Source: Actinomycetota bacterium (GTDB lineage Bacteria; Actinomycetota; Acidimicrobiia; Acidimicrobiales; Ilumatobacteraceae). From it: DNA of 40,270 nucleotides. The stretch spans positions 1-40,270 of the forward strand of contig JAQCDG010000004.1 of NCBI GenBank assembly GCA_027731085.1, read 5' to 3'. The translations under genes and the position numbers were made by a program. The notes under the pieces are model-generated. The model was not told where the DNA came from. It made no database searches and saw nothing but the letters and a program-made list of their open reading frames with translations. Shown piece by piece: positions 24,740 to 28,727 of the stretch (position 1 is the first letter of the stretch; each line of letters begins with the position of its first letter).

Positions 24740-25465
24740 TTAGGACTCAGGTCGTTCGAAAACCGCGACCGATTTAAGGCGACGCTCGAGATGATGCTCC
24801 ATACATTTCGTCGCAAGGTCAGACACCTCGCGAGTTGCCGCACTCTCTGGCAAAGATAGAGCCAGATTCAATTGTCCACCGACAATATTTTGAATTATCT
24901 TGATCGCGTCGTTTGAGATAGTCGCGCCACTACGACAATTTTGACACTGCCCGCCACCACGAAACAGGTCAAAAGCAACAATTTGTTCACCTGGTGCACC
25001 ACAACCGACACAACTTTCAATGTGTGCACCAACACCTTCGACGACGAGCAGTTTAAAATAAAACGCGGCCAGAACTAATGCCGAGTCGTTTTCTGAAAGC
25101 CATTGCAACGCCCCAACCAACATTTTGTAAAGGTGCGGTGTCGGCTCGCCCTCCATACCGAGTTGGTCAACCGCCTCAAGCATCGCCAGACCGCGTGTCA
25201 GACGATCTAAATCGCTGTAAAGACCTCTTGCGCTGGTAACCAATTCAACCTGATTCACCGTGTCTAAGTCTTTTCCCTTGTTTAGCAATACATCAATATG
25301 GCTGAGAGGCTCTAGCCGAGCACCAAACCGCGACGACATTTTTCGCACACCATTTGCGACCGCGCGAACCTTTCCGTGTTGTTCGCTCATCATCACGATT
25401 ATTCGATCAGCCTCGCGCAAATCATATGTTCGCAAGACAATCGCCTTGTCGCGATACAAACTCAC
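24740..25465 (-). CDS. recO: DNA repair protein RecO
   Basis: 241 aa; MSLYRDKAIVLRTYDLREADRIIVMMSEQHGKVRAVANGVRK; CxxC pair CVGCG...CQNC. Confidence 0.94.
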   Translation of the reverse strand: MSLYRDKAIVLRTYDLREADRIIVMMSEQHGKVRAVANGVRKMSSRFGARLEPLSHIDVLLNKGKDLDTVNQVELVTSARGLYSDLDRLTRGLAMLEAVDQLGMEGEPTPHLYKMLVGALQWLSENDSALVLAAFYFKLLVVEGVGAHIESCVGCGAPGEQIVAFDLFRGGGQCQNCRSGATISNDAIKIIQNIVGGQLNLALSLPESAATREVSDLATKCMEHHLERRLKSVAVFERPES

Positions 25466-26055
25466 GAGTCAACACCACCAAAACGACGATCGCGACGCTG
25501 AAAGTCTCCGATTGCCATTTGAATGTGTTCAACATCGCACTGCAGCCACGGAACATTCAAGAATACGAGTTCACTATAGGCAAGTTCCCACATCAACGAT
25601 TCAGGCACCTGAGTTGGCACGCCCAACACCAAAACTAAATCAGGCTCGCCAGATGCGGGTGTGAGAAGAGTTGCCGCAAGTTTTTCTTCATCAATTGCTT
25701 GGCTGCTACTCAGCTGAGCGACAGCATTGACAAATCTCTCTTGACCGTCTGCGCAAGTGTCGACCACCACAATCAGTCCATGTTCGGCGATCACAGAAAC
25801 TCTGTCACCAGAACGCTGACCCCCGAAAACCGAGACAATCGAGTTACAGATCGCTGTGCGTTCGATTGCGCTTGCATTTCCTGAATATGGATAAATAGAA
25901 AGCCACCTAACACCAACTCCGCCGACCGAACGCACCAACGCATCGATCTGAACTTTCCATTGCTCAGGTGTTGTTTTCAGCCATTCGAAGATGGTTCCGG
26001 CACACACCAAGACATGGGCCAATTCACCATTCAGATCGTGCGTCGCTTTAGCCAT
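25462..26055 (-). CDS. Divergent undecaprenyl diphosphate synthase-like protein lacking catalytic motifs (putative non-catalytic cis-prenyltransferase subunit)
   Basis: 197 aa; C-terminal PDLVLVLGVPTQVPESLMWELAYSELVFLNVPWLQCDVEHIQMAIGDFQRRDRRFGG aligns by eye with the UppS C-terminus; motif I equivalent is HVLVCAGTIFEW (catalytic Asp absent). ATGA overlap with recO. Confidence 0.75.
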   Translation of the reverse strand: MAKATHDLNGELAHVLVCAGTIFEWLKTTPEQWKVQIDALVRSVGGVGVRWLSIYPYSGNASAIERTAICNSIVSVFGGQRSGDRVSVIAEHGLIVVVDTCADGQERFVNAVAQLSSSQAIDEEKLAATLLTPASGEPDLVLVLGVPTQVPESLMWELAYSELVFLNVPWLQCDVEHIQMAIGDFQRRDRRFGGVDS

Positions 26056-26117
26056 CGTGACATTCTCTCACTTCTAAACGACTTAACTCGCCAATCAGAG
26101 TTGTTAGCGTTGAACAA

Positions 26118-26786
26118 ATGAATTCGAAACCACTTCACGTTGCCTGCATCATGGACGGCAATGGAAGATGGGCTCGCAAGCGAGGGTTGCCCCGCACAGC
26201 GGGCCACACCGCGGGCGAAGAGTCACTCGCCGATGTAGTTCGCGTTGCTTCAAAACGCGAAGTTGCATACTTGACGGTGTTTGGCTTTTCTACTGAAAAC
26301 TGGGTGCGCCCGCGGGCAGAAGTTCGTCATATTCTCGGCCTACACAAGAAACTTTTCGGACGAATTTCTGAATTGAACGAAAACAATGTTCGCGTCAATT
26401 GGATCGGCCGACCTTTCGACGAGCCGGGTTCGCGCACACCGCTTTATGTGCAACGAGCAATTCGAAAAGCCATCGAAGATACTCGAAACAACACTGGCAT
26501 GGTTCTAACCGTTGCATTTGACTATGGCTCGCGAAGTGAACTGACTCGTGCCGCCAAACACCTTGTTGCATCAAGTGACGATCTCACACCAGCGAACTTG
26601 CAGCGACATCTTTACGACGCGTCGTTGCCACCCGTTGATGTTCTCGTTCGAACCTCGGGCGAATCTCGAATTTCAAATTTCTTGCTCTGGCAAATAAAAG
26701 CCGCAAAAATTTATTTCACCGAGCGGCCATGGCCAGATTTTGACTCTGTTGATCTTGATGCCGCTATCGCGTTGGCAAAGAATTAG
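26118..26786 (+). CDS. uppS: Isoprenyl transferase / undecaprenyl diphosphate synthase family (catalytic motifs intact, C-terminal RxG absent)
   Basis: 222 aa; HVACIMDGNGRWARKRGLPRTAGH, VAYLTVFGFSTENW, FDYGSRSEL, DVLVRTSGESRISNFLLWQ; ends ...DLDAAIALAKN without the usual RRFGG. Confidence 0.95.
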   Translation: MNSKPLHVACIMDGNGRWARKRGLPRTAGHTAGEESLADVVRVASKREVAYLTVFGFSTENWVRPRAEVRHILGLHKKLFGRISELNENNVRVNWIGRPFDEPGSRTPLYVQRAIRKAIEDTRNNTGMVLTVAFDYGSRSELTRAAKHLVASSDDLTPANLQRHLYDASLPPVDVLVRTSGESRISNFLLWQIKAAKIYFTERPWPDFDSVDLDAAIALAKN

Positions 26787-26819: not shown

Positions 26820-28727
26820 GTGCCACCGAACATCGCCGACCAAGAAATTCTCGATGCTTTGCGGCGTGTCACCAATGAATTGGCTAATGCTGAAGAACGA
26901 CAAGGTCAAGACGAGATGGCTATTTTGGTCGGTCGTGCTCTGCGCAAAAACCGACATCTGATCGTGCAAGCAGGTACGGGCACGGGCAAAACGCTCGGGT
27001 ATCTGGTGCCTGCAATTGTGTCGGGTCGACGCATCGTCGTTTCAACGGTGACGAAGGCTTTGCAAGATCAACTTTCACAAAGCGATCTTCCATTGTTGGC
27101 TAAAGCCTTGAATCCGACCCTTGATCACGAATTGACGTGGACGGTTCTCAAGGGTCGCAGCAACTATTTATGTCGGCAGCGAATCGCCGAACTCGCCGAT
27201 CGCACTCAATCGCGACTCGAACTCGACGACCTCTCGGTGCGTACGAAATCAGACGTCAAGAAGCTCTGCGAATGGGCAGAGTCGACACAGACGGGAGACG
27301 AGGGCGAACTTGATTGGCAACCGCAACGCAATGCTTGGTCGATGGTCAGCGTCACCAGCGAAGAGTGTCCTGGGGCATCTCGATGTCCGCATGGTGAAAG
27401 TTGTTTTTCAGAACGCGCACGAAACGAAAGCCAAACGGCTGACATCGTGATCGTCAACGGCTGGTTATATGCATTAGACATCGTCACCGAGGGCACGATT
27501 ATCGGCGAGCACGATGTAGTTATTTTTGATGAGGCACATGAGCTTGAAGATGTCGTTACCGATTCTGCGGGGCTAGCCCTTTCGCCAAGTCGTATCACGA
27601 CTATTGGTTCGGCGATGAGGTCAATTATCCGCGACGACGCAATGTCGGGTGGTTTTGCCAAAAGTGCAGCACGACTGCGCGATGCGATCGTGCCGTTCAT
27701 CAACAAGCGAGTGTCATTGCCTCTTGACAACGAGTCTCGCGAGACTCTCGTCGAAGTTCGGGGTCGCGCAAATGAGGCTCTCGACTCGTTGCGTACCATC
27801 GCCACAAAGGATGAGTCGGCCAAACAACGCAAACTGCGCGCACAATCTCTTTGCACTCGTTTCATCGAAGACCTCGATTTGGCTCTGACAGATCGCAGTG
27901 GATACGTCGCCTATGTCGCTGGCACGCCTGACCGATGCTCACTTGAAATGCGCCCATTAAATGTGGGTGCAGCGCTGCATGAATCTGTTTGGTCTCAGCG
28001 CACTGCAATTTTGACCAGCGCGACAATACCCACAAATCTGCCTGAGCGACTTGGTCTTGTGCCCGAGAGTTTTGACGCATGCCATGTGGCAAGTCCGTTT
28101 GACTACGAAAATAACTCGCTGCTGTATTGTGCTTCGCACTTGCCTGATCCGGCGCAGGGTGCGCGCGACAAGGCGGTGCATCGCGAAATCGAAGAGTTGA
28201 TCAATGCGGCAGGTGGTCGAACTCTCGCTCTATTTACGAGTTACGCACGATTGAATAGCGCTTACAACGACCTTGAAGACAAGCTTGAATTCAAAATTCT
28301 CAAACAAGACGATCTGCCAAAAATGGAGCTATTGCGCAAGTTCGCCGAAAGCGAAGCTACATGCTTGTTCGCCACACAAAGTTTCTTCCAGGGCGTCGAC
28401 GTGCCGGGTCAAACGCTAAGTCTCGTGATCATCGACCGCCTACCGTTTCCGGTGCCGACAGATCCGCTGATGAGCGCACGTCGCGATGCATTTGGTAAGT
28501 CGGCATTCACCGCAATCGATATTCCGATTGCCGCGACAAAGTTGGCACAAGCAGCAGGTCGACTAATTCGAACACAAACCGATCTCGGTGTGGTCGCCGT
28601 GCTCGACCCTCGACTCGTGACGAAGGGTTATGGCAAGTCAATAATCGAAATGTTGCCCCCAATGGAGTTCACCAACAAACTCGCAAGAGCCAAAGAATTT
28701 TTGGCTTACGCCGTCAAAAGTCGATAA
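26820..28727 (+). CDS. dinG: ATP-dependent helicase, DinG/XPD-like
   Basis: 635 aa from GTG; VQAGTGTGKTLGYLVPAI, Cys cluster (CRQR...CPGASRCPHGESC), VVIFDEAHELEDV, Q/R motifs QAAGRLIRTQTDLGVVAVLDPRL. Confidence 0.9.
   Translation: MPPNIADQEILDALRRVTNELANAEERQGQDEMAILVGRALRKNRHLIVQAGTGTGKTLGYLVPAIVSGRRIVVSTVTKALQDQLSQSDLPLLAKALNPTLDHELTWTVLKGRSNYLCRQRIAELADRTQSRLELDDLSVRTKSDVKKLCEWAESTQTGDEGELDWQPQRNAWSMVSVTSEECPGASRCPHGESCFSERARNESQTADIVIVNGWLYALDIVTEGTIIGEHDVVIFDEAHELEDVVTDSAGLALSPSRITTIGSAMRSIIRDDAMSGGFAKSAARLRDAIVPFINKRVSLPLDNESRETLVEVRGRANEALDSLRTIATKDESAKQRKLRAQSLCTRFIEDLDLALTDRSGYVAYVAGTPDRCSLEMRPLNVGAALHESVWSQRTAILTSATIPTNLPERLGLVPESFDACHVASPFDYENNSLLYCASHLPDPAQGARDKAVHREIEELINAAGGRTLALFTSYARLNSAYNDLEDKLEFKILKQDDLPKMELLRKFAESEATCLFATQSFFQGVDVPGQTLSLVIIDRLPFPVPTDPLMSARRDAFGKSAFTAIDIPIAATKLAQAAGRLIRTQTDLGVVAVLDPRLVTKGYGKSIIEMLPPMEFTNKLARAKEFLAYAVKSR

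Follow-up and report, generated by a model that had tools for sequence, protein, structure and literature searches.

Gene layout of the locus

The window, by which we mean the whole stretch of 40,270 nucleotides that was analysed, carries two divergently orientated genes similar to undecaprenyl diphosphate synthase (UppS) between recO and a helicase gene. Residues are given below by position numbers which we take to be those of E. coli UppS. The features of the locus are as follows:

24740 to 25465, minus strand: recO, with a 4-bp overlap with the stop of the partner gene
25462 to 26055, minus strand: putative non-catalytic partner, 197 aa, UppS fold, from a C-terminal PF01255 match and the predicted fold; D26, N28, R30, R39, H43, W75, R194 and S202 lost; retains the WELAYSE interface segment and the RRFGG tail
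26056 to 26117, no strand: divergent intergenic region, 62 bp, presumed to be a shared regulatory region
26118 to 26786, plus strand: putative catalytic subunit, UppS-like, 222 aa, PF01255 match with all cis-acting active-site residues; C-terminal RxG tail absent, Y211 and E213 lost, family-specific PFDE insertion present
26820 to 28727, plus strand: YoaA/DinG-family helicase, 3' of the catalytic gene, a flanking marker conserved in the family

The positions of both ORFs, their divergent orientation and the 62-bp gap agree with a preliminary description of this DNA, and its account of the motifs in both proteins proved accurate when checked against the sequence. A promoter scan of the 62-bp spacer found no sigma-70 consensus. 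The HMM search proposed in that description matched both proteins to the Prenyltransf family (PF01255), the catalytic protein at E 2.9e-67 over profile positions 1-209 of 219 only, and the partner at E 6.5e-12 over positions 125-219 only, which is the C-terminal half. The source genome is a MAG of 160 contigs (1.53 Mb, 87% complete, 6.5% contamination) and had no PF01255 match beyond these two.

Distribution in Ilumatobacteraceae and beyond

The family sampled was Ilumatobacteraceae (Acidimicrobiia), which takes in freshwater acIV bins and Ilumatobacter sp. Of the 151 family genomes, nearly all matched PF01255 exactly twice, with one strong hit that stops at about position 208-209 of the profile and one weak hit to its C-terminal part. 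In genomes of about 55 further families of the order, as well as in the wider class, the main match runs from 1 to 219. A strong match was seen at 108 family loci. Of these, 104 have no RxG tail, and 95 of the 104 carry the partner at the locus as well, invariably on the other strand; wherever recO was seen at tail-less loci it shared the strand of the partner. The tail was present at the remaining four family loci, none of which had a partner. Outside the family, the tail occurred in 76 of 77 loci and the partner in 0/77. A scan of 397 genomes across the phylum confined the partner to Ilumatobacteraceae (E <= 2.2e-54), the next matches (1.7e-29) being ordinary UppS, with most of the top ones from the same order or class.

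Thirteen family loci had no adjacent partner, four of them (G011, G023, G057, G110) with a complete UppS and no partner and nine of them tail-less. A genome-wide profile search recovered the partner elsewhere in the genome for G138 (two loci), G106, G117, G101, G087, G073 and G015, and the G148 locus lies at a contig edge. Catalytic gene and partner are 2-10 kb apart or on separate contigs in a few genomes. Two further genomes hold incomplete genes: G131, outside the 108 loci, where a contig edge leaves just the beginning of the partner, and G121, which has the catalytic gene only as a fragment. Every tail-less catalytic gene examined had a partner in the same genome except where the contig ends. 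The preliminary description had named relatives with one gene and not the other as a refuting observation, and neither gene was found singly among relatives, barring incomplete MAGs with contig ends, one fragment and one broken copy.

Three genomes in this set deserve separate mention. At locus L324 of G101 (G101:C96:12500-26000) the catalytic gene and partner are both kept on either side of a stretch of about 9.4 kb that resembles a sugar-transport/catabolism gene cluster. G138 (L007, L132) has the catalytic gene twice and also two partner matches, spread over different contigs, and is most likely a mixed MAG. In G100 (L326, G100:C8:1-4000) an in-frame TAG breaks the partner, which is either a sequencing error or a real break in this one MAG.

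The single-contig closed genomes G012 (4.83 Mb), G019 and G038 encode exactly the pair and no complete UppS, together with PF00953 (MraY-type) enzymes, which would need the product. The preliminary description had named a second complete UppS in the genome as an observation that would count against a two-subunit enzyme; this was ruled out for the source genome and the three closed genomes. It had also called the pair unusual, which did not hold: with tail-less genes at 104 sampled loci, the pair is a normal, fixed family-level trait of Ilumatobacteraceae.

Partition of conserved residues between the two proteins

The E. coli-numbered positions were scored in a single alignment of three sets (104 catalytic proteins, 96 partners and 66 ordinary proteins). 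Nine residues (D26, N28, R30, R39, H43, S71, W75, R194, S202) were present in 104/104 catalytic and 66/66 ordinary proteins; E73 was likewise invariant in these two sets and R200 conserved. The partners have mostly or wholly lost the nine, with D26 replaced by G and S202 by P in 95/96 each, R194 replaced by V or I, and R39 and W75 deleted. A minority retain the ordinary residue at S71 (24), E73 (6) or R200 (43). The opposite pattern was found at the C-terminal end. Y211 was seen in 0/104 catalytic proteins (mostly G) and E213 in 11/104, versus 96/96 partners and 66/66 ordinary proteins for both, while the RxG tail was present in 0/104 catalytic proteins versus 95/96 partners and 66/66 ordinary proteins.

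The complementary loss of motifs put forward in the preliminary description is therefore borne out by alignment column, with the cis residues on one side and Y211, E213 and RxG on the other. Moreover, the Y211/E213 segment is a second complementary swap beyond those noted there, reading AAK in the catalytic protein and an invariant YSE in the partner. Across 27 aligned partner sequences, the invariant columns were G20, W25, W33, G104, D139, W156, E157, Y160, E162, V164, R188 and R190-G194. The RxG arginine of M. tuberculosis DPPS (Arg292*) acts from the counter-subunit (PMC6450523), and in the human enzyme the NgBR tail crosses the interface and helps to build both DHDDS substrate sites (PMC7573591). 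Because the RxG arginine and the NgBR tail act across the interface in these enzymes, the column pattern indicates that the trans-acting RxG tail has been transferred entirely to the partner. The pattern of loss makes Y211 and E213 candidates for trans-acting residues as well; a literature search on the role of E213 found nothing.

Catalytic subunits also carry a four-residue insertion, P-F-D-E, after the conserved GR that follows the third-substrate strand, its F being present in 104/104, and an invariant W at a position where ordinary UppS has F. The insertion and the W change could mark a new interface.

Predicted folds and selection

The AlphaFold2 models of both proteins are confident and have the cis-prenyltransferase fold. 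The partner model (pLDDT 90.3, pTM 0.87) had E. coli UppS as its best PDB match (4.9e-8), and the catalytic model (pLDDT 87.1, pTM 0.86) matched UPPS 4q9m best (3.4e-23, TM 0.85). By profile, the partner matched UppS at 4.5e-22 versus 2.5e-6 for human NUS1. Taken with the PF01255 and PDB matches, this establishes the degenerate protein as a significant cis-prenyltransferase homologue, as the preliminary description supposed. The partner begins with about 13 residues without structure that lead into the first strand, and neither its sequence nor its model has a hydrophobic helix or membrane anchor ahead of that strand. Purifying selection acts on both genes, dN/dS between close pairs being 0.03-0.19 in the partner and 0.03-0.11 in the catalytic gene.

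History of the locus

The single uppS of related families is commonly a same-strand neighbour of recO, and the partner therefore occupies the ancestral uppS position. The catalytic proteins group as a single, long-branched clade (SH-aLRT 100). G011 has a complete uppS between yoaA and recO, and in the three genomes of genus g23 (G023, G057, G042) yoaA abuts recO, both genes of the pair being absent together. Two of the three, G023 and G057, encode a complete UppS of another clade elsewhere. In a glyS tree G011 and g23 are nested within Ilumatobacteraceae, which would mean that the pair was lost jointly and secondarily; the alternative in which they branch early was not rejected by an AU test on glyS (p 0.14). 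These lineages may thus reflect either secondary loss or branching before the split.

A distinct clade of full-length cis-prenyltransferases was observed in g23, G110 and families f2 and f16 (loci L004, L005, L006 and L229-L231; genomes G023, G057, G110, G151, G241 and G165), with a RTSSEYRLSNFFPWH-type motif in f1 members. The distinct-clade enzyme is apparently the sole UppS of G023 and G057.

A probable obligate heteromer and its alternatives

The pair has every sequence-level hallmark of a heteromeric cis-prenyltransferase: a PF01255 subunit with the Asp and substrate-binding residues intact (all nine in 104/104) and RxG absent (104/104), and a catalytically dead homologous second subunit that bears the RxG tail. 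As a supporting feature, the source genome and the three closed genomes have no complete homodimeric enzyme. Catalytic residues and RxG do not occur in one polypeptide, as they do in homodimeric UppS, and the partner has neither the closest similarity to NUS1 nor the N-terminal membrane anchor of the NgBR/Nus1 subfamily. Taken together, these data make it very likely that the pair forms a single undecaprenyl (polyprenyl) diphosphate synthase, an obligate heteromer with one half from each gene. Binding of FPP, IPP and Mg2+ and the chemistry itself would fall to the plus-strand protein. The minus-strand protein, which has the same fold and no active site, would pair with it through the UppS dimer interface and, at the active site of the catalytic subunit, insert its RRFGG tail and place the Y211/E213 segment. 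The tail would be inserted as it is between the monomers of a UppS homodimer and as NgBR does for DHDDS. Activity would depend on the complex, and its product would presumably be a C55-type carrier lipid. A counterpoint is that 11 of the 104 catalytic proteins retain glutamate at E213. The arrangement most likely goes back to one ancestral event in Ilumatobacteraceae, in which the recO-adjacent uppS copy would have lost catalysis and a second, divergent copy, gained by duplication or transfer, would have lost the trans-acting residues. Since everything descends from an apparent single origin, the co-occurrence of the two genes counts as one evolutionary event and not as many.

Loss of RxG need not end activity: M. 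mazei MM_0014 is an active homodimer without it (PMC8131916), and DHDDS by itself is weakly active (PMC7573591). The tail-less protein might be a self-sufficient, RxG-independent homodimer beside a separate regulator or adaptor, and the genes are indeed divergent rather than in a single operon. A regulator or adaptor, however, would not need the interface segment and the RRFGG tail, yet these are invariant in the 27 aligned sequences; the catalytic protein is without Y211 and E213 too, no other UppS is there for the essential function, and the two genes are present together and absent together. We consider such a homodimer quite improbable. A heteromer that makes mainly a product other than C55, differing in chain length in either direction or serving another pathway, is a variant compatible with the preferred explanation and somewhat less improbable, though still unlikely. 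Eukaryotic heteromers make long chains (PMC7573591), and the alpha-3 region is altered in the catalytic subunit, which also has the four-residue insertion; but the archaeal heteromer of M. mazei makes C45-50 (PMC8131916), and the pair is the sole cis-prenyltransferase of closed genomes that also encode MraY-type enzymes, so it must supply at least the cell-wall carrier.

Decay of an ancestral recO-adjacent uppS into a pseudogene would account for the position and the lost catalytic motifs of the partner. It is very hard to reconcile with a gene that is open in nearly all sampled family genomes, has a dN/dS of 0.03-0.19, keeps the RRFGG tail in 95/96 cases and has a confidently predicted fold. 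Chance, a frameshift and a pseudogene were ruled out by the family-wide recurrence of the truncated/degenerate pair, by the tail counts (0/104 versus 95/96) and by dN/dS. The fragmented, partly contaminated source MAG (160 contigs, 6.5%) might suggest an assembly or binning artefact, but the arrangement recurs in the three single-contig genomes and in some 100 further assemblies, leaving this a negligible prospect.

Significance

A literature search, mostly of papers available without subscription, found heteromeric cis-prenyltransferases described for eukaryotes and for an archaeon but no bacterial one; an earlier bacterial report may exist. The broader reading, which we hold to be likely, is that a bacterial cis-prenyltransferase has split independently of eukaryotes and archaea, serves as the sole UppS of most of the family, and has its residues divided into cis and trans sets. 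The family apparently makes an essential cell-wall lipid carrier with two proteins, an active-site half and a tail-supplying half. If so, an essential enzyme and antibiotic target would have reached a two-subunit form independently, and the pair would offer a soluble, anchor-free natural model for disease mutations in DHDDS/NgBR and for the question of why heteromers evolve. Some 95 naturally occurring pairs of sequences would separate the cis- from the trans-acting residues of the enzyme family, with Y211 and E213 as candidate trans positions.

Comparison with known systems

A close parallel in design is the eukaryotic DHDDS/NgBR (Rer2/Nus1, CPT/CPTL), in which RxG is likewise missing from the catalytic subunit and comes from a catalytically dead one with the same fold (PMC7573591). 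The bacterial partner, in contrast, lacks both a membrane anchor and an N-terminal extension, the bacterial catalytic subunit simply ends where DHDDS has a C-terminal helix-turn-helix, and the bacterial genes are neighbours. The partner is also far closer to UppS than to NUS1 (4.5e-22 versus 2.5e-6), which marks it as derived from UppS and convergent on NUS1, not as an orthologue of NUS1; the arrangement probably arose independently.

Archaeal heteromers are a later addition to the known examples (PMC8131916). Like the present pair, M. mazei MM_0618/MM_1083 is a prokaryotic two-gene cis-prenyltransferase for a glycosyl carrier lipid (PMC8131916), although it belongs to another domain with another cell envelope, and the two are likened here by description and not by sequence. 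MM_0014 shares the absence of RxG with the catalytic protein but is a partnerless homodimer in crystals with a TLGG C-terminus (PMC8131916). Homodimeric UppS, as in E. coli UppS and M. tuberculosis Rv2361c, has the same fold, motifs and cross-interface RxG (PMC6450523), and its gene, like that of the partner, commonly neighbours recO in related families. There the cis and trans residues are contained in one gene, whereas here they are divided between two.
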